Of a stretch of 64,000 nt of DNA, positions 642 to 61,122 are shown one piece after another. The stretch is from NCBI GenBank assembly GCA_963082975.1, contig OY720344.1, positions 72,816,546 through 72,880,545 of the forward strand, given 5' to 3'. Below the pieces are notes generated by a model. That model did no database searches. It was not told the origin of the DNA and saw nothing but the letters and a program-made list of their open reading frames with translations. Made by a program: the position numbers and the translations under genes. The DNA comes from Labia minor. Lineage: Eukaryota; Arthropoda; Insecta; Dermaptera; Spongiphoridae. Positions within the stretch are counted from its first letter, which is position 1, and each line of letters opens with the position of its first letter.

Positions 642-1095
642 CTTGAACGGCTCAACGGATTTTGATGAAATTTGGTATATTTACTTAACGCATCACAGTA
701 TGATGAATTGATCAACTTTTTGAAAATCCGGAAATCGGAACTGGTAGTATTAGCGATCGACGATAGGAAGGCAAGGGTTATTTTCACACCAAATTTCACA
801 TGAGGAGATTTTTACATATCACCACGAATCATGCACTTTGTGGTGCTTTTATTCTCGAGAAAAATCATCTTTATTAGTTTTTTTATTAATTTAAAATTAT
901 ATGACGTCATCCAGCCATTCATGACGTCACAGCCTGGTCTTACATATATATTATAAATAAAATAAAATTAAAAATATTTATGTTATATCCATATCTGTTT
1001 TTATTACTTTAATAGATATATTAAAATTATTTGAAATTGTTTCTGTAGCTGGAAATTAATTTATTTCAAACCGTCGGTCGGTCAACTTATTTTTT
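642..1095 (-). mobile_element. Family A short element, truncated copy
   Basis: This matches the reverse complement of the complete family-A copies (for example 27654-28274): the segment with the GCGATCGACGATAGGA motif, the paired TGACGTCA sites and the terminal CCGTCGGTCGG motif. The end with the central CGGA/CAGA microsatellite and the terminal hairpin is missing, and a short internal deletion removes the CTGGCCACAGG block near 1085. It encodes no protein. Confidence 0.85.
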
Positions 1096-6903: not shown

Positions 6904-7539
6904 TAAGTTGACCTGTGGCCAGGTCCGAACCGACCGACTGTTTGAAATAAATTAATTTCCAGCTACAGAAACAATTTCAAATAATTTTAATATATCTATT
7001 AATGTAATAAAAAACAGATAGGCATACATAAATAATAAATATAAACATTTTTAATTTTATTTTATTTATAATATATATGCAAGACCAGGCTGTGACGTCA
7101 TGAATGGCTGGATGACGTCATATAATTTTAAATCAAGAAAAAACTAATAAATATGATTTTTCTCGAGGATAAAACCAATACAAAGTGCATGATTCGTGGT
7201 GATATATAAAAAAATCTCCTTTGGTGTGAAAATAACGCTTTCCTTCCTATCGTCGATCGCTAATACTACCACTTCCGGTTTCCGGAATTGCACCAAAAGT
7301 TGATCAATTCATCCCACTGATGCATTAAGTAAATATACCAAATTTCATCACAATCCGTTGAGCCGTTCAAGCTGTACACATCTATACGGACGGACGGACA
7401 GACGGACAGACGGACGGACAGACATCATGCTAAAAATACTTTTTTCTGTTTAGAAAATGCATGATTCGTGGAGATATGTAAAAATCTCCACATGTGAAAT
7501 TTGGTGTGAAAACAACATCCCTTACTATCGTCGGTCGGT
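6904..7539 (+). mobile_element. Family A short element, near-complete copy in a transposon arm
   Basis: Runs from TAAGTTGACCTGTGGCC to ATCGTCGGTCGGT and includes paired TGACGTCA sites, a CGGA/CAGA microsatellite (about 7390-7425) and the GTGGAGAT...ATCTCCAC stem-loop. It sits in the left arm of the long-arm transposon. The unfilled site survives in the right arm (near 9205-9222): an A8 tract there, against A5 on each side of the insert here. See the findings. Confidence 0.9.
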
Positions 7540-8742: not shown

Positions 8743-9540
8743 AAGGAGTGCCTAGTATTAATTGAAAAACTGATGATTCATTAAAAATGCCTTCACAGAG
8801 AACTGTTTCCCACATATTTAAGTGTAGTTTATTCTTAATTAAACAGCTGTACCCAGCAGGAGAATTATTATTGTTATTATTAATTATTAATGTATGCTTT
8901 TCATGCACACAGTTTCTTAGGTAAAAATATTTTATTTAATATTAAAATGTCTAATTATTAACAATATTCAGCCATTGAGACTGGCACAACCTCATATTGC
9001 TCATAATTAATGTGTTGTAACTTGCAGTGGTCTTAGTAAATAGAAGGAGGCAAATACACAAAACTTTTATTTTATTAAATTAAAGCCCATTTCATGTAGA
9101 TAATTTAGGAAAAAAAAAGTTCTTGATTATCTCATTCCCTTGTCGAGATATTTCATTTTACGCTAAACCTTGTTTGTAATTTTAAAATTTTATAATGTCC
9201 AACATATAATTTTTTTTAAAATATTTTGGGGTCCGTTACATTTTTTTACAATTCCTCATAGTTATAAGAACATGCCTTAAAAATTTCAACAAGATAGGAG
9301 GTTAAATAAGTGAATGAGAAATTATTTTCTACTCCAATACACGTTTTATCTGGCCTTATACGAGGCTCGGAAATTTAAAAACGCCAATCTTTAAAGTGCC
9401 AATACTCAAAAACTATGTGAGATAAAAAATTAAAATTTGGTGGTGTTTTTCATGTTTATAAATAGAACATATTTACCAATTTTCATAAAAATCTGAGGTT
9501 TTGGGTAAAACGGCCTGGATGAGTTGACGTGGAATGACCC

Positions 9541-23384: not shown

Positions 23385-23948
23385 TTTTTTTTTCCTCTAA
23401 ACTGAACGTAAAAATAAAGATATATGTTTGATAGTTTTTCACATGATTAAAAATTGTTTAAAACTGCTATATATAAAATTTCAACTTGATAATCTGAAGT
23501 GTATTATATTATTATATTATATTTAAATTATATAAAATTATAAATTATATAAAATATTTTTAATTAATTAAATTATAAATTAAAATTAATAACTATATAT
23601 TGAACCAGCGCGTGTTTGGCTCTTTGTTGATCGCACCACGTCACGTGGCGCGTGTTTTGAAAGTCATGTTAAAAAATTAATTCCGGTACTTTCAGCGATT
23701 CAATCAAACTGAAATTCTATATATAGCAGTTTTATCCAGATTTTAATCATGTGAAAAACTATTCAAACATATATCTTTATTTTTACGGTCAGTTTAGAGG
23801 GGGGAAAAAATCAAAACGTGGTAGGTAATGACCCTCTTAAGGATGAGCTTCATTTATCAAGTGGAAAACTACGAATTTTGAATAATTCCCGTGTACCAAA
23901 TTTCATGATTCCAGCTCAAACCGTTTTTGCGTAATCTTGTCTACATAA

Positions 23949-27573: not shown

Positions 27574-27653
27574 AGCAGTTTTATACAATTATTAATCATG
27601 TGAAAAATTATAAAACATATATCTTTATCTTTACGGTCACTTTAGAGGAAAAA

Positions 27654-28274
27654 TAAGTTGACCTGTGGCCAGGTCCGAACCGACCGACGGTTTGAAATAA
27701 ATTAATTCCAAGCTACAGAAACAATTTCAAATAATTTTAATATATCTATTATTGTAATAAAAAACAGATAGGCATAAACATAAATATTTTTAATTTTATT
27801 TTATTTATAATATATATGTAAGACCAGGCTGTGACGTCATGAATGGTTGGATGACGTCATATAATTTTAAATTAAGAAAAAACTAATATAGATGATTTTT
27901 CTCGAGGATAAAACCAATACAAAGAGCATGATTCGTGGTGATATATAAAAAAATCTCCTCTTGTGAAATTTGGTGTGAAAATAACCCTTCCCTTCCTATC
28001 GTCGATCGCTAATACTACCACTTCCGGTTTCCGGATTTGCACCAAAAGTTGATCAATTCATCCCACTGATGCATTAAGTAAATATACCAAATTTCATCAA
28101 AATCGGTTGAGCCGTTCAGGCTGTACACATCTATACGGACAGACGGACGGACAGACATCATGCTAAAAATACTTTTTTCTGTTAAGAATATGCATGATTC
28201 GTGGAGATATGTAAAAATCTCCACATGTGAAATTTGGTGTGAAAACAATACCTCCCTTACTATCGTCGGTCGGT
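27654..28274 (+). mobile_element. Family A short element, complete copy (reference)
   Basis: Runs from TAAGTTGACCTGTGGCCAGG to ATCGTCGGTCGGT. In order: subterminal ACCGACCGACGG motif, a pair of TGACGTCA sites (about 27832-27863), a first hairpin-plus-CTATCGTCGATCG module (about 27922-28010), a CGGACAGA-type microsatellite (28135-28157), then a second module with the perfect stem GTGGAGAT/ATCTCCAC and the terminal CTATCGTCGGTCGG. A5 lies on each side; uninterrupted B copies have A8 here. No protein is encoded. Confidence 0.95.
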
Positions 28275-28532
28275 AAAAATCAAAACGTTGTAGGTAATGA
28301 CCCTCTTCCGGTTGAGCTACATTTCTCAAAAGTTGATAGAAAACTACGAATTTTGAATAATGCTCATGTACCAAATTTCATCATTCTAGCTCAAACCGTT
28401 TTTCCGTAATCTTGGTACATACACACACACACAGACATTTATTCAACCTTAGTGAAAATGATTCAGGAACCTTCAAAACGTATAAAAACATCAAAATCTC
28501 ATTATCGAAAATTTTCGATAGTAAAAATTATA

Positions 28533-34972: not shown

Positions 34973-35613
34973 AGCTGGAGTGTCTCCACTCGACTATCTC
35001 GCAATTTGAATTGGATTAAATAACATAATATATTATATCTAAATTAAATTTAATTAATTATAAATTATAAATAATAAATAATAAATATTAAACCAGCGCA
35101 TGTTTGGCTTTTTGTTGATGGCACCACGTCACGTGTTGGCGCGTGAGATTTGCAGTGTTAAAAAATTAATTCTGGTAATTTCAGCGAATCAATCAAGCTG
35201 AAATTCTATATATAGCAGTTTTATACAATGTTTAATCATGTGAAAAATTATCAAACATATATCTTTATTTTTACGGTCACTTTAGAGGAAAAAAAATCAA
35301 AACGTTGTAGGTAATGACCCTCTTCCGGTTGAGCTACATTTCTCAAAAGTTGATAGAAAACTATGAATTTTGAATAATGTCCATGTACCAAATTTCATCA
35401 TTCTAGCTCAAACCGTTTTTGCGTAATCTTGCCTACATACATACATACACACATACACACATACACACATACACACACACATACACACACACAGACATTT
35501 TTCTCAACCTTAGTGAAAATGATTCAGGAACCTTCAAAACGTATAAAAACATCAAAATCTCAACATCGAAAATTTTCGTGATCGCAATACTATCTCTGGC
35601 GAGATAGTAAAAA
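34973..35613 (+). mobile_element. Family B short element, complete copy (reference)
   Basis: Starts AGCTGGAGTGTCTCCACTCG with a GAGTG-TCTC-CACTC hairpin, then subterminal ACTATCTCGC. The middle holds a (CATA/CA)n microsatellite (35433-35495). It ends with the perfect stem-loop ACTATCTC-TGGC-GAGATAGT (35589-35608) followed by AAAAAT. The 3' arm repeats the subterminal motif inverted. Non-coding. Confidence 0.95.
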
Positions 35614-35904: not shown

Positions 35905-36541
35905 TAAGTTGACCTGTGGCCATGTCTGAACCGACCGACGGTTTGAAGTAAATTAATTTCAAGCTACAGAAACAATTTCAAATAATTTTAATATATCTAT
36001 TAATGTAATAAAAACAGATATGGATACATAAATAATAAATATAAACATTTTTAATTTTATTTTATTTATAATATATATGCAAGACCAGACTGTGACGTCA
36101 TGAATGGCTGGATGACGTCATATAATTTTAAATTAAGAAAAAAACTAATAAAGATGATTTTTCTCGAGAATAAAACCACCACAAAGTGCATGATTCGTGG
36201 TGATATATAAAAAAAATCTCCTCATGTGAAATTTGGTGTGAAAATAACCCTTCCCTTCCTATCGTCGATCGCTAATACTACCACTTCCGGTTTCCGGATT
36301 TGCACCAAAAGTTGATCAATTCATCCCACTGATGCATTAAGTAAATATACCAAACTTCATCAAAATCGGTTGAGCCGTTCAGGCTGTACACATCTATACG
36401 GACGGACGGATGGACGGACAGACATCATGCTAAAAATACTTTTTTCTGTTAAGAAAATGCATGATTCGTGGAGATATGTAAAAATCTCCACATGTGAAAT
36501 TTGGTGTGAAAACAATACCTCCCTTACTATCGTCGGTCGGT
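35905..36541 (+). mobile_element. Family A short element, complete copy
   Basis: TAAGTTGACCTGTGGCC to ATCGTCGGTCGGT with all blocks of the reference copy, including paired TGACGTCA sites, CGGACGGA microsatellite (about 36400-36420) and the terminal stem-loop. Flanked by GAGAA on the left and an A6 run on the right. Confidence 0.95.
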
Positions 36542-38195: not shown

Positions 38196-38852
38196 ACCGA
38201 CCGACGATAGTAAGGGAGGTATTGTTTTCACACCAAATTTCACATGTGGAGATTTTTACATATCTCCACGAATCATGCATTTTCTTAACAGAAAAAAGTA
38301 TTTTTAGCATCATGTCTGTCCGTGCGTCCGTCCGTCCTTCCGTCTGTCCGTATAGATCCGTATAGATGTGAACGGCTCAACCGATTTTGATGAAATTTGG
38401 TATATTTACTTAATGCATCAGAGGGATGAATTGATCAACTTTTGGTGCAAATCCGGAAACCGGAAGTGGTAGTATTAGCGATCGACGATAGGATGGGAAG
38501 GGTTATTTTCACACCAAATTTCACATGAGGAGATATTTTTACATATCATCACGAATGTATTGGTTTTATCCTCGGGAAAAATCATCTTCATTATGTTTTT
38601 CTTAATTTAAAATTATATGACGTCACCCAGCCCTTCATGACGTCACAGCCTCCGTATTATGATCACGGGCAACGCCGGCTACTTCAGCTATATATTATAA
38701 ATAAAATAAAATTAAAAATATTTATGTTCTATGCCTATCTGTTTTTTATTACATTAATAGATATATTAAAATTATTTGAAATTGTTTCTGTAGCTGGAAA
38801 TTAATTTATTTCAAACCGTCCGTCGGTTCGGAACTGGCCACAGGTCAACTTA
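38196..38852 (-). mobile_element. Family A short element, complete copy
   Basis: Reverse-oriented copy from ACCGACCGACGATAGTAAGG to CCACAGGTCAACTTA with stem-loop, microsatellite (38310-38350, TCCG/TCTG units), one perfect TGACGTCA and the subterminal motif. Between the TGACGTCA region and the AT-rich part, 38652-38693 differs from other copies and contains GATCACGGGCAACGCCGGCT, possibly a small Helitron-type end. Confidence 0.9.
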
Positions 38853-41754: not shown

Positions 41755-42535
41755 TAACTGCTCAGAGCGCCTTCAACAATACCTCCCTTACTATCGTCGG
41801 TAGATAAAAATGTTTAGATATTATTGTAGACATTTTTATTCTGTAAATTAAATAATTTTATTTCATTTAAGTTAATATCTATTAAATATATTTTGCTCTC
41901 TACATTGCTTATCTAATTCTCACAATATATTAAGATCATATAAATTGGAATTATTTATTAATTATTTATGTCAACTTATTTAAAATTTGATATCTGAATG
42001 TTGTCATTCAAAGAATGTTTATATTTATATTTTTTATGTTATATTTATATTTATAATTTATTTTTTTTAATATTGGCCTTTTTAAATTATTTATAAAACA
42101 CTGAAAACATTCAAGATTATATGAATAAATAATTTTAATTTTGATCTCATTTTTTAATTTTCAAGTAAGTAAGATATTATTATGGGTGGATTCACAATAT
42201 ATGAAGGGACACTTTTAGAAATGTGGATGTTGATATAACATTTACAATAATAATATATAATTAATTTACTGATTAAATTAAAATATATTAAAATTAAAAA
42301 CACAAAAACAAATAAATGTTTTATCTAATATACTGATTGAACAGCTAGTATAGTATAGTATTTTATATTTACGCAGTCGCTGTATAATAAATTGATAACG
42401 TCATTTAATTCTCCTATATCGAATCGAATAAAGATAAATCTTCTAAACGTTGTGAAATAATTTCAATTTAAATGCTCATAGTATCTATGTTCTCCAAACC
42501 TAATTTGACACAGATTGTTTCGCAATTTACCCAGA
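41076..42535. other. AT-rich spacer with (AT)n and repeat remnants
   Basis: No gene recognised. (AT)n at about 41719-41752. 41757-41805 contains CTGCTCAGAGCGCCTTC and then CTCCCTTACTATCGTCGGT, scraps of the hairpin end at 39473-39503 and of family A. 41799-41945 matches 26225-26355. Confidence 0.55.
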
Positions 42536-43350: not shown

Positions 43351-43424
43351 CCTAATACTTGATTTTTTTTTTGTTTAATTCGATTCATACTCTGCTCTTC
43401 TTCAGAATTGCTCTGCTCACAGAC

Positions 43425-44178
43425 AATTTGAAAAAGATTTTGTTGAAAACAAATTTGGTTTGGCTTGCGACATTTGTGGTAGATTGTGGTTTAAAAATGA
43501 TTTGAAATATTTATCGAATAACGATACTACTACAAATATTGAATTTATAAGAACATTGCTCTCAAGCATTGATATACTGCAAATAAAAATATGTTCGACT
43601 TGCTTTACATACATCAATTCAAAAGCAAAATATTCCACCACTATCAGTTTACAATGGATTTAAGTATCCTCCACTTCCAGACTGTCTTAAAGAATTTCCT
43701 TTGGATTTGTTGTCTGAAAGACTTATATCACCAAGGATTCCATTTATGCAAATTCGTAGGCTTCGGCATATTCATGGTCAATATGGAATTTATGGGCAAG
43801 TAATAAATGTTCCAATCGAAGTAAATACAATGGTGAACCTGTTACCAAGACATTTTGATGATGGCCATTCCATAACAGTCCATATTAAAAGGAAAAAAAA
43901 TCACAAATCCAGCTACGTATAAGGTATAATCAAAAAAAGAAAAATAAAAGTTTGGTTACGATATTTAAAAGATACTCCTCTTTACAAATCCTATAACATT
44001 TGCATTGACGAGCATTTTTTAAACGATAGCAATTATGATGTTGAGCATGAAATTATCTTTGATGAAGATGGTGACAATGACATTTTAGAACAAATCCCCA
44101 TTGAGGAAAGTTTAATTGCACAGCAGCAAACCTTAATGTGGAACGACGAGATGTACTTGAGAATCGCTCCAGCAGAAG
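43425..44178 (+). pseudogene. Helentron N-terminal region (DUF6570-like)
   Basis: Opens with LACDICGRLWFKNDL (a CxxC pair followed by a second pair CSTC). After a shift near 43650 follow MQIRRLRHIHGQYGIYGQVI, NVPIEVNTMVNLLPRHFDD and HIKRKKNHKSS. A stop at 43920 interrupts; the same frame continues as KVWLRYLKDTPLYKSYN and an acidic stretch, ending at GCAGAAG before a GT-AG intron. The role of this region in transposition is not established. Confidence 0.8.
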
Positions 44179-44276
44179 GTAGTTTTTAATTTTATTTTTA
44201 TTTTAATATTTCTTTGTGATTTATTTAAATATAATAAAATATAAACTGTAGATATTTACTTTTGTTTTATTTTCAG
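44179..44276 (+). other. Probable spliceosomal intron in the Helentron gene
   Basis: 98 bases, GTAGTT at the start and a pyrimidine-rich TTTTATTTTCAG at the end, very AT-rich, with an in-frame stop at its start. Removing it joins a frame ending in an APAE context to one that continues NVPKNLLFDEHAEELSFP in phase, matching the unbroken order in related proteins. Confidence 0.75.
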
Positions 44277-45683
44277 ATAATGTTCCAAAGAATTTGCTAT
44301 TCGATGAACATGCTGAAGAATTATCTTTTCCACAAATATATTTGGGGCAATTCAGAGAATTCAGGCATGGCCTATCGGTCACACCCTTCATGATGGCAAC
44401 AAGTGAACTTACGCGGTCTGATAGACGAGGAGTAACTCCGCAACACTTGTTATATATAGCTATGAAAATAATGAGAATTAGAATTAAGGATTCTCTTAAT
44501 ATTGCATTCAAGCATGTTGGCCAAGGTATTACAATAACTAAAGAGCAAATACAATCTGATGATTATGTTCATGGCTGTATTGAAACTAATTTGGCTTTCC
44601 TGCCCTCCATTCCGAATTCAGCATACTATTGGGCAGAAAGAAAAAGAGATCTTTTTGCTATGATTCGTCAATATGGAAAGCCAACAATTTTCTTTACGAT
44701 AATTTAAAAAATAAAACGGATATGTCGGCTGAAGAAGCTGCAGATTTGCATTTTATTGAGCAAAGCACTCTTATTAATGAAGATGCCGTGACATGCGCTA
44801 TATACTTCAATAAGTTGGTCAATGTTCTTTTAAAATCGAAAAGGTACAGTCCATTCAAAAAATACAGGCTTTTGCATTATTTTAAGAGAATCGAATTCCA
44901 ACATAAAGGTAGTCCACATGCGCATATTCTAGCTTGGTTGGCCATTGCCGCGGAAGACGCCCTTGGAAAAGATTACAATAAAGTAATCGATCTCATTGAT
45001 TTTCTAATATCAGTATCTGCTGCAGAGGCTTCTGGTATTATCCGATTGCAAACTCATAAGCATACTCTTACGTGCTATAAAGGTATAGCGTCAAGGCGAC
45101 AACAAAAGTGTAGATTTGATGCTCCATTATGCCAGTTAAGACAACCATGATTTTGACACCTATGCCAGATACAGAAGATGGTTTCAAACAGTACAAACTT
45201 AAATATAATGCAATCCGAAGAAACTTGGAAAATTACGAATACAATAGTTTTCAATCGTTTTACGATGAAAATGATATTGCTTCAGATGAAGAATATGTCA
45301 ATATTATTCGAGCAGGAATTAACAGACCAGGAGTTTTTCCAAAACGTGAATCTTGTGAGAAATGGAATAATCCATTTAATCCATTTATACTTCACGTTGT
45401 TAGATCTAACACAGATTTTCAATTCATCACTGAAGAGTATTCTTGTGTAGCGTACGTAGTTGAATATGTGAATAAAACTAACAGAGGTGTTAGTAATTTA
45501 CGAAGGAAAATTATTGAAATAATGGATGAACATCCTGAGTTTAATTTATTTGACATCACTAAGAACATTAGCATTAATCTTTTAAATCATACTGAGATGA
45601 CAAGTCAAGAGGCTGCATGGTATTTATTGAGAGAGTCAATGTCAAGAAGTTCAAGTATTGTAGTCTATATTCCAACCATATAG
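44277..45683 (+). pseudogene. Helentron Rep nuclease (HUH, two Tyr)
   Basis: LSFPQIYLGQFREFRHG opens the domain, then KRDLFAMIRQYGKPTIFFT. A shift near 44695 precedes IEFQHKGSPHAHILAWL, the HUH metal-binding motif with both His kept. A second shift near 45140 leads to EYSCVAYVVEYVNKTNRG, holding the two Tyr used for strand cleavage in Y2 rolling-circle transposases. Catalytic residues look intact, but the two shifts prevent a full product. Confidence 0.85.
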
Positions 45684-46382
45684 CCGATTGAAAGGCAACG
45701 AATTAAGAAAACAATGAAACAAATAAGTGAACTAGAAGATGATTCAACAGACATTTGGAAGGAAAATTGATTTGATAAATATGAGAAAAGACCTGAAGAT
45801 TTAGTGGATATTTCTCTTGTTCAGTTTGTGACTAAATATTATAAAAATAACAAGGGTAAATACGTACTTAGAGAAGAACCAAAAGTTATACGATATCGTA
45901 ATTATGATATGGCTACAGACTATAACGAGTACCGAAGAGAAATGGTTACTTTGCACCTTCCATTTCGTCATGAAGAAGAGGATATTCTTGCAAAATCACG
46001 ATACCTTCAGTTATACGAAGAAAATGAGGCACTTATTCTAGAGAGAAGAAAAGAGTTCGAATCAAATATCGACATCCAAAAAACATTGGAAATATGCAAA
46101 GAGTTATGCCGTGAAAATGTTCCAGTTGATGAAGATAATATAAATGAAGTCGTTGGTAGAATACCTGGTGAAAATCCATTTGCTGAATTATATGAAAATC
46201 CAAACGCTTATTTAAATGATGATTTAAGACTTGCATTGTTCAATAAACTAGGAGCCATCGCGAAAAAGAAAGAAAATATCTTATCTTATCCCGACTTTTA
46301 TGCACTTATGCACAAAGCAAACGAAGAGCAGCGAGAAATTTTGTTTCACACTATGCATCATTTAATATCAACAAACGAGTAA
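45684..46382 (+). pseudogene. Helentron linker between Rep and helicase
   Basis: Continues the Rep frame after a TAG at 45681; another stop lies near 45768. VDISLVQFVTKYYKNNKGKY, EEPKVIRYRNYD and VTLHLPFRHEEEDIL follow the usual pattern between Rep and helicase in Helitron proteins. A TAA at 46380 separates it from the helicase in the same frame. Confidence 0.75.
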
Positions 46383-47838
46383 ATGCAAGAACCATTACAG
46401 ATATATTTGACTGGGAGTGGTAAAACGTTTGTGATAAAAGCACTTATGGAAATTTATAATAGATTTTCTGATACCGATGGAATTTTCATCGCATACATTG
46501 CATGTGCTTCAACTGGAAAAGCTGCTTCAGCTATAGGTGGAACAACGGTGCATAATGCTCTAAGTATATCACTGTCACGGCTATTACCGCTGAACCTTGA
46601 GAAAGCTCATCAATACAGAGCACTATTTGAATTTGTTAAGGTTGTTATCATTAATGAAGTAAGCATGGTTTCAGCAGAATTATTAGAGCAAATCGACGCA
46701 CGTTTGAAACAAATTACTGGCTTGTTTACAAAAGCTTTTGGTGGATTAGACATAATACTTATTGGAGATTTGCGTCAATTACCACCTGTAAAAGCCACGC
46801 CTATCTTCAAGCAAATTAAAAAAAAAATTACTGCTGAATCACTTTGGCGAAAATTTAAACAATTTTAACTTAAGCAGGTAATGTGCCAAGAAAATAAAAT
46901 CTTTTCTTCAATTTTAACAAAGATTGGGGATGGAATCATTCTAACAGAAGAAGAAATAAATGTGATAGAATCTAGATTTGGACCCAAAGAACTTGCATAA
47001 ACAGTATGTCCGGAAGGAATTAGACTCATGTTTACAAATGCTGGAGTAAACGAATACAATTCTTTATATGTAGAACAGATTTGAAAATAAAACTATGTCA
47101 TTGGCATCGGATGTTTTCGTTGGTTGCCGAAATGGCGAGCAAGAAACTTTTGTTAGGCAGAAGTTACATAAAATGAAACTAGACGAGACTGGTGGATTAC
47201 CTTATGAATTAATTCTGGTTATTAATACAACTTATATGATAACTACAAACATAGATGTTGCAGATGGTTTATCTAATGGCACAGTAGGAAAATTACTTTT
47301 CATAGAATATGATGAAAATGGTAAAATAACAAGACTTTGGTTTAAATTCCCAAAATCTATTGGTAAAAAACGTGCAACAAAGTATAGAGGTGATATTGCA
47401 CGTTTGAAAATTGACAAAGATGCTGTTCCAATTTCGTCACAAACATCGTCAATACCACTGAACAACAATAAAACTATATTGGCGAAAAGAAAACATTTTC
47501 CGTTAATTTCTGCTTTGGCAATGACTATTCACAAATCACAAGGAGGTACTTTTGATGCTATTGTTTATGAATACAATCGTTGTCACTCCAGAGAATTGGT
47601 ATATGTTGTGCTATCAAGAGTAACTAATATAGAAGGTTTATTCTTAGTTACTAAAGAAAACACACAAGAGAGCTGGAAATTTTATCATGGTAGAGTAGGA
47701 AACGCACAGACGGAAGATTCAAACTTAACAAAACATCAAAAGAAATCATCAACTTATCGAGAAGATTTATCTATTGAATTAAAAAGATTATACGTGACAA
47801 TCCTTTGCAAACCATCACTAGAACTCTCCTTGATTTGA
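46383..47838 (+). pseudogene. Helentron PIF1-type helicase
   Basis: The Walker A region reads YLTGSGKTFVIK, apparently shorter by about three residues than the usual GGAGTGKT form. Then CASTGKAASAIGGTTVHNAL, VVIINEVSMVS (Walker B, N for D in the DE pair), IGDLRQLPPV. Stops at 46866, 46998 and 47082 and a shift near 47090 interrupt the middle. The last part has NIDVADGLSNGTVGKL, ALAMTIHKSQGGTFD and YVVLSRVTN (motifs V-VI). It would unwind DNA during rolling-circle transposition. Confidence 0.85.
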
Positions 47839-48580
47839 TTTCTAAGAATAATACACTGTCAATTTTTACATTCAATTGTCAAAGTTTACATATGCATATT
47901 CAGAAGAAGATGAATGTGTTAATTTTATCAGAAACTCATATGGGTAGCGATGAAATAATTGATATCCCACATTTTAACTTTGTTGCAAGTTTCAAAAGAA
48001 ATAATCGGCCAGCAGGAGTAGCTATATATCAAAATATGGACACACATTATTATTGCACAAATTACATGAATGTGCATGCGCAATACGCCAGCATGTTCAA
48101 CACTACTACTTCTGATATCGGCGATATGTGTATATGTCGTTGCCACACTGGTGATAATCAGTTGATCATTATGGTTGCCGTTTACATTTCTCCGGATAAG
48201 TCATTACGTGCTATACAAGACTTTTTGTATGAACATTTATTTATATATTCTCATGACGCATCTGCATTGCTTCAAAAAAAAAAATGGAAAAAGATATGAT
48301 GATTTGCCAATGATTTTGAGTGAAGATTTCAACATAAACTTTGCAGACGATAAAAATATATCATTAATTGAATTTTTAAATAATGAATTTGATTTAAAAA
48401 TGTCAAATGATCGCAATCTAAGTACTACGAAATATAAAACTACAATAGATGCAACTTTACAAGACATTTACATAGATTTCAATCAAAATTGTTCATTTCT
48501 TACTGTAGATACCATAAACCTATTGTATCAGTTTTACAAATTGATGATGATGGTCGTCAATATGGTGAAAGTATTGTAGA
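47820..48580 (+). pseudogene. Helentron C-terminal AP-type endonuclease
   Basis: After a shift, IFTFNCQSLHMH, VLILSETHM, RPAGVAIYQN, IIMVAVYISPDKS; then after a second shift near 48290 in an A9 run, ILSEDFNINF (Glu for the Gly of GDFN), and KTTIDATLQD. This is the exonuclease/endonuclease/phosphatase fold also used by LINEs. Its placement right after the helicase defines the Helentron type. The last motif is not clear. Confidence 0.75.
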
Positions 48581-49471
48581 AACTGTACATGAAAGTTTAT
48601 TTTTCAAAAGTATAAAATGTTTTTAAATATTGCAATAAAAGCATATTGTATTGTAATATAAATTATAGATGTAAAAATTTTGTACGGAAAAGAAATAAAA
48701 GAATATTATATTTTAATATATGGGTGACCCAGCCAGTAGTTGAACAAATAAAGCCAGTTTACCACGGATCCTGTTGTAAGTTCTATACTATTAGCCGTAA
48801 AACTAAGCTAATGGATTTTTAACAAAGCTTTATTATTGTAGTTATTAAAAAAAATATTAAACAGTGCTTAACTGAAAAATAAAAAGCAAAAAAAAATTCA
48901 CATTTTTTATGATTTTTTTCCAGTGGTTGAACAGACATGTCCAGTTTCTGAACGCTCGATATTCCAGTAATTGAACACCTGTTATTTCATAGTTTTTTTT
49001 TTATTTTAAGTTTAGGTACACATCCAAAACGACTTAACAAATATCTAGGCCTAGAGCTTGAGTACTCATAACACAATACAAGGCTAATTCACATTCCAAA
49101 CATTGCTCAATGTTTAAATTATAATAATAATAATAACAATAATACATATATTTATTTATTAATTTATTTCAAACAAACACCAATCGGCAATATACATATA
49201 AGATACAAAATTAAAAATATTTTTAAAATTTTTTAAACTTTTGATACGAAATTGCTTAGGGAGTCGAGTCCCGGTACTGCATACAGATTCCTAGTTTTAC
49301 TGATTTTTGTCCGCTCACAATGGGAAACAATGCTTTCCCAATTATAAAAAAGAACATCTTTTTTTTGGCCATTTCCATTGATTTGGCCATTGAGGACACT
49401 TCTGCACCATCTTCATCGATTTTCAGTATTATGCCTGGGAAATATTTGTCCTCGTATACAATAATCACATG

Positions 49472-60407: not shown

Positions 60408-61122
<715 letters not shown>

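Follow-up and report, generated by a model that had tools for sequence, protein, structure and literature searches.

The 64,000-nucleotide stretch of Labia minor DNA analysed here, hereafter the window, carries at 27654-28274 a 621-base repeat, family A, which lies on the minus strand in Helentron orientation. An earlier note, made from the letters alone, had described it as a protein-less element with complete copies at 27654, 35905 and 38196, shared end motifs and a CGGA/CAGA microsatellite, all of which are present, with the copy at 38196-38852 on the opposite strand. The label 'protein-less' is fair, since the longest stop-free frame in the element spans only 85 codons. The copy at 6904, which had been called near-complete, is actually complete, and its left motif contains one mismatch. 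The features discussed below are, in window coordinates:

27654..28274, minus strand: family A element, read here as a composite HINE (Helentron-associated element), with borders common to 30 of 30 full copies and 1.1% from the 30-copy consensus
28275..28279, no strand: A-run (T-run in Helentron orientation) on the 5' side of the insertion
28264..28274, minus strand: 5' subterminal repeat ACCGACCGACG, at the 5' tip
28201..28224, minus strand: hairpin GTGGAGAT/ATCTCCAC of the earlier note, a 5'-side feature 51-74 bases inside the 5' end
28135..28157, minus strand: (GTCY)n microsatellite, short, reading CGGA/CAGA on the plus strand
28011..28134, minus strand: core of the first unit (..AACGGCTCAACCGATTTTGATGAAATTTGG..), with a similar module, by eye, in host repeat B
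27926..28010, minus strand: internal decayed 5'-end copy (AGCGATCGACG..., stem broken), with TT before it
27700..27925, minus strand: AT-rich middle part of the second (monomer) unit, in alignment with three monomers of 350-362 bases
27679..27689, minus strand: 3' subterminal repeat CGTCGGTCGGT, ending 25 bases short of the 3' tip, with part of it in a separate small hairpin
27660..27675, minus strand: 3' terminal hairpin GACCTG-GCCA-CAGGTC, set 6 bases in from the 3' tip
27649..27653, no strand: A-run on the 3' side of the insertion
35212..35411, plus strand: unfilled site (A8) for the 27654 insertion, inside host repeat B
6904..7539, minus strand: complete family A copy, 636 bases, 90.6%, with an unfilled paralogue at 9091-9331
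35905..36541, minus strand: complete family A copy
38196..38852, plus strand: complete family A copy in opposite orientation
644..1082, plus strand: family A copy in which the 5' module is missing, as is most of the 3' hairpin segment
4946..5110, plus strand: 5'-truncated family A copy with intact 3' end
43385..48721, plus strand: decayed Helentron (Rep with GSPHAH, Pif1 helicase and, by eye, an endonuclease-like tail)

Copies and insertion sites of family A

Over the genome of 604,477,936 bases, the window-right (5') end has 25,553 exact 16-base matches and, as a 20-mer including AAAA, 22,385 exact occurrences; the window-left (3') end is represented by 20,389 exact 20-mers, and reversed control sequences gave no matches. 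With about 20,000 copies, each about 0.62 kb long, family A would make up roughly 2% of the genome. Within the window, ACCGACCGACG occurs 10 times with up to one mismatch against an expectation of 0.07. A DNA search with family A yielded 1,838 candidates, 40 of which were scored, and all of these, the window copy included, matched over the full length at 94-100%. Measured against the consensus of 30 full copies (the four of the window and 26 in the fetched loci L029-L048), the window copies show Kimura distances of 1.1, 2.8, 2.8 and 5.6%, and the median for all 30 is 2.0%, a low divergence that is biased because L029-L048 (20 of 38 candidate regions) were picked as the best matches to the 27654 copy. 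An exact 22-base piece of the core had no match in one scan of viral contigs, and no match to two core strings of family A was found in the literature.

The left border, AA followed by TAAGT, and the right border, CGGT followed by AAAAA, are seen in all 30 full copies, with TAAGTTGACC and GGTCGGT each exact in 28 of them. The A-runs are 2-6 bases long on the left and 5-7 on the right, and the flanks beyond them appear unrelated by eye. Insertion into A or T runs, as the earlier note had supposed, is thus borne out by the borders of 30/30 copies. In the fetched DNA we counted 64 5'-like matches (up to three mismatches), of which 36 are preceded by 5-7 T; the other 28 have only TT, and of these 26 are instances of an internal copy (see below), one is a monomer (L043) and one a solitary fragment (L037). 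At least TT follows 33 of 34 3' ends. The target preference is strong, given that an AAAAA starts at just 1.16% of the positions in the window, and the insertion in TT or T-rich DNA that characterizes HINEs is also seen in the exact 5' ends at large, 22,385 of 25,553 being followed by AAAA.

Two window insertions had been reported to have readable unfilled sites, at which A8 became A5-element-A5 with a gain of two A, and both are real: the 27654 insertion as compared with its two closest paralogues (window 35212-35411, 95.5%; L040 6249-6448, 96.5%), and the 6904 insertion as compared with window 9331-9091 (95.9%). Two A were likewise gained at L044 5078 relative to the closest unfilled paralogue (93.8%), and there was no net gain at L042 4592, either against its closest unfilled paralogue (96.0%, 50 bases) or against two more diverged ones. 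This tally takes only the closest paralogue or paralogues per site at identity above 93%; the L030 and L034 6170 sites (best paralogues about 80-87%) and chance AT-rich matches were left out. More diverged paralogues of the 27654 site differ in their number of A, that at L034 2424-2588 (90%) having A10. As to the claim that no target duplication accompanies insertion, no ordinary one is seen, and the close unfilled sites show none beyond a possible AA; however, the gain of two A also fits a 2-base AA duplication, which is indistinguishable from two element-borne A/T because every site is a homopolymer. The same ambiguity and a variable number of T are described for HINEs in the accessible part of PMC4067079.

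The repeat that received family A at 27654, host repeat B, lies at window 35000-35560, 60500-61000, 23386-23919 and 2735-2895. It has a GT-rich microsatellite followed by a core that, by eye, is like that of family A (..GATGAAATTTGG..ATCAACTTTT..CCGGAAG..), and on account of these two features it may be another HINE-like family.

Orientation and terminal structures

Family A reads opposite to the direction that had been proposed for it, and the HINE plan fits only on the minus strand, because the 3' hairpin and the inner repeat sit at window-left and the tip repeat at window-right. On this strand the T-run is followed by ACCGACCGACG at the 5' tip, then by (GTCY)n, which falls in the left part of the element, by CGTCGGTCGGT, by the GACCTG/CAGGTC hairpin close to the 3' tip, and finally by TT. 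In mite HINEs, as far as PMC4067079 was accessible, one subterminal repeat is set 2-4 bases in from the 5' tip; measured from the 3' tip, its partner lies at 38-60 bases and a palindrome at 8-35. In terminal copies of family A, ACCGACCGACG directly follows the T-run, and the inner 3' repeat and the hairpin lie 25 and 6 bases (8 with TT) from the 3' tip.

The 3' hairpin, which reads GACCTG-TGGC-CAGGTC on the plus strand, had been overlooked and is stronger than the stem described earlier. Folded as single-stranded DNA, the last 47 bases form two hairpins with a z-score of -3.79 (0 of 200 shuffles as good), and, counting G-T, all six pairs of the terminal hairpin are kept in 26 of 34 3' ends and five in the remaining 8. 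The GTGGAGAT/ATCTCCAC stem, thought to be perfect and about 50 bases from the 3' end, does exist, but it is a feature of the 5' side and is imperfect in three of three monomers (see below). Its region folds with a z-score of -1.07 (25/200 shuffles as good); when G-T is counted, 28 of the 30 full copies have 8/8 pairs and two have 7, and with Watson-Crick pairs only, 26 have 8/8 and four have 7.

Truncated family A copies are of both the 5'- and the 3'-truncated kind, and for this reason truncation is no proof of direction. Solitary 5' ends of about 30 bases, stopping near TATTGTT, are found at L048 3754-3785, L037 2930-2960 and window 41775-41801, and look as if copying had halted early. There are also three head-to-head pairs of family A elements with 5' tips about 70-215 bases apart (C1:725654/725882, 1790734/1790956 and 3116081/3116162), in which the T-run at one 5' end was perhaps a target for the next element.

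Composite build of the 621-base form

The 621-base form is a head-to-tail composite, in which a 5' module with microsatellite and core, lacking a 3' end, is fused to a complete monomer of about 350 bases. The internal 5' end at 27926-28010, also missed in the earlier reading, is about 85% alike to the outer one; its subterminal repeat is altered to AGCGATCGACG, and its stem is found in 29 of 30 copies, with 6/8 pairs in 21 and 5/8 in 8. The fetched DNA contains three monomers of 350-362 bases, at three different places, each consisting of 5' module, middle and 3' module. Of 8 possible pairs their 5' stems form 5, 5 and 7, which suggests that a perfect stem is unnecessary for movement.

The exact fusion junction occurs 16,850 times genome-wide. 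To pair the ends we used the first 100 of the 25,553 5' ends, together with 74 3' ends and the listed junctions, in C1:0-2.99 Mb. Inward of 41 of these 100 5' ends lies an exact junction at a distance of 182-312 bases; one of the 41 has two junctions, at 312 and 594 bases. A correctly oriented exact 3' end lies within 1 kb of 50 of the 100, as against 2 in the flipped control, and the lengths so delimited are 307-369 (8 cases), 601-675 (41) and 968 bases (1). Monomer, dimer and at least one trimer are still present for comparison.

Elements with multiple 5' ends and one 3' end are explained in PMC5148889, in the part accessible to us, by self-insertion, after which the outer 5' end and the first 3' end delimit the stretch that transposes. 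By this route, a related HINE upstream, or one that received an insertion, would have lost its 3' end to give the dominant 621-base form; a nick at the outer 5' end with a stop at the sole remaining 3' hairpin would have moved both units as one, and the inner 5' end would have decayed afterwards. Template switching or unequal exchange between tandem copies, in place of self-insertion and end-bypass, is a possible though doubtful origin of the composite: the 968-base form with its two junctions 282 bases apart would accord with it, but the inner unit begins exactly at TT followed by AGCGATCGACG, which is the normal insertion register. Returning to self-insertion, one may speculate, with little confidence, that growth on the 5' side was stepwise, monomers of about 350, dimers of about 620 and trimers of about 970 bases all moving with one 3' hairpin, each new outer 5' module serving as origin while the inner one decays, and that a dimer with a perfected outer hairpin out-competed the monomer.

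Class, Helentron machinery and known systems

As judged from sequence, family A is very probably a HINE, i.e. a rolling-circle transposon of the Helentron/Helitron2 group that is not autonomous and is moved in trans by the Rep-helicase of a Helentron. Two fixed asymmetric ends with a subterminal inverted pair, the 3' hairpin, an A/T-run target at a fixed register, the lack of an ordinary target duplication, a copy number in the tens of thousands and the presence of Helentron-type Rep genes in the genome agree with the Helentron-associated class named in the earlier note. In such a scheme Rep would nick the T-run beside ACCGACCGACG, the helicase would unwind the strand, replication would halt at the 3' hairpin, and a T-run would then be joined by the copy, in single-stranded or circular form. 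With class and direction of family A now placed, the direction decides where the gene of its partner is to be sought.

GSPH, with S for L, is given as the Helentron signature in the accessible part of PMC4067079. Nineteen of the 20 strong PF14214 loci (L009-L028) have the Helitron-type motif RGLPH, none being seen in L028, and the Helentron-type RGSPH is present in 4/4 weaker PF14214 loci fetched for the motif test, which have open frames of 1,785, 1,754, 2,181 and 1,489 aa. The decayed Helentron of the window has a GSPH-type motif at 44872, then a Pif1-type helicase and then the endonuclease-like stretch, which was judged by eye and has no Pfam match. Its shared right border (48721) and left border (43385) are both, by eye, unlike family A; the left one may have been cut by another repeat. 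Looking for inverted 11-mers and hairpins did not reveal the ends of this Helentron. Only two relatives of its Rep region exceed 50% identity. Window 48070-48721, the 3' part of this Helentron with the endonuclease-like coding included, is a high-copy repeat: of 445 candidates 40 were scored, and 38 of these, besides the window and one longer copy, match at 88-97%, with 37/38 beginning at window 48070-48091 and about 31-32 reaching 48719-48721.

That family A is instead a non-autonomous element of the Helitron2 type, moved by a Rep-helicase without endonuclease and not by a Helentron proper, seems rather unlikely. Its asymmetric terminal inverted repeat, the hairpins on both sides of the long form and the TTTTT upstream would all suit such an element, the last when compared with the insertion of Helitron2 between TTTT and T or C described in the accessible part of PMC5148889. 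Against this, the 5' hairpin is imperfect in the 3/3 monomers, the decayed window Helentron has a tail that looks endonuclease-like by eye but lacks a Pfam match, and Helentron-type Rep motifs are found in the genome, as seen from the motif alone in those loci. A MITE, i.e. a deletion derivative of a cut-and-paste transposon with terminal inverted repeats (TIRs), is very improbable: family A is short, protein-less and of high copy number and has an inverted repeat near both ends, but the pair is asymmetric, at the tip of one end and 25 bases inside the other, with no duplication beyond the possible AA. A SINE or other retroelement, with the A-run at window-right (at least 5 A in 30/30 copies) as its poly(A) tail, is hardly tenable, since the A-run predates insertion (A7 or A8 in close unfilled sites), both ends are fixed and there is no duplication of 7-20 bases.

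Neither the symmetric terminal inverted repeats and fixed duplication of TIR transposons and MITEs, nor the added poly(A) tail and 7-20 base duplication that are the hallmarks of SINEs, are seen in family A. Canonical Helitrons begin with 5' TC, end with 3' CTRR and insert between A and T; family A has the ends (TT)ACCG and CTTA and inserts within T-runs.

No autonomous element carrying family A ends was found in the PF14214 loci, Helentron flanks or end-pair sample examined. In the 3.5 kb stretches of L009-L028, family A ends gave no match at E 0.01 and weak AT-rich matches at E 10. The Helentron family at C9:34498524 and C2:71968315 has a 5' end, TTTT followed by TAGTTATACGAGGG, that is unlike family A. 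About 1.9 kb upstream of the likely start codon of the Helentron at C1:47868109 contained no family A 5' end, and its 5' side has only a 143-base family A fragment (93%). Furthermore, family A end pairs 1-12 kb apart show no excess in a 3 Mb sample, where 14 were counted and the flipped control gave 23. The comparison of ends with those of Helentrons in the genome, which the earlier note had called for, gave one family whose 5' end differs and, over the upstream stretch covered for another, no family A 5' end.

The searches also drew in a Helitron family with RGLPH at six places (C9:43358460, 43365333 and 45506044, C10:14925745, C1:82181971 and C5:81088381), all with the same PF14214 score and with open frames 1,651-1,652 aa long; two of the places lie within 7 kb in opposite orientation, and the family was probably active recently. 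At C5:46739897-46792979 we noted a cluster of repeated broken PF14214 matches, several spaced by about 5.7 and 9.8 kb, which suggests a tandemly amplified Helitron segment.

The HINE class is already known, and for the composite form an explanation has been published. As far as the accessible part of PMC4067079 describes them, the HINE of Metaseiulus occidentalis and DINE-1 of Drosophila share with family A a repeat near the 5' tip, its partner near the 3' tip with a palindrome after it, a T-rich target in which TT flanks both sides and the number of T varies, a microsatellite, and the lack of a protein. No duplication is evident in them, and in family A none beyond the possible AA. In contrast to them, family A has its 5' end duplicated internally, and its 3' repeat, 25-36 bases from the tip, lies slightly nearer than the 38-60 bases of the mite HINE (PMC4067079). 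The Cg_HINE elements of Crassostrea gigas likewise have subterminal repeats of 11-12 bases, a palindrome after the right repeat and a T-rich target, and several have a (GTCY)n-type microsatellite in the left part; the accessible part of PMC7492417 names no related autonomous partner for them either. They differ in having a satellite-like central array (PMC7492417), where family A has a second HINE unit; no such array is reported inside 27654-28274. Similar in build to the composite is FoHeli of Fusarium oxysporum, which has asymmetric inverted repeats and several copies in which multiple 5' ends go with a single 3' end, the duplicated 5' sequence being typically under 200 bases (PMC5148889, accessible part). 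Family A presents a high-copy case of this 'several 5' ends, one 3' end' composite known from Fusarium Helitrons (PMC5148889), and, unlike in FoHeli as described there, the fused form is the commonest length class, in a family with about 20,000 exact ends.
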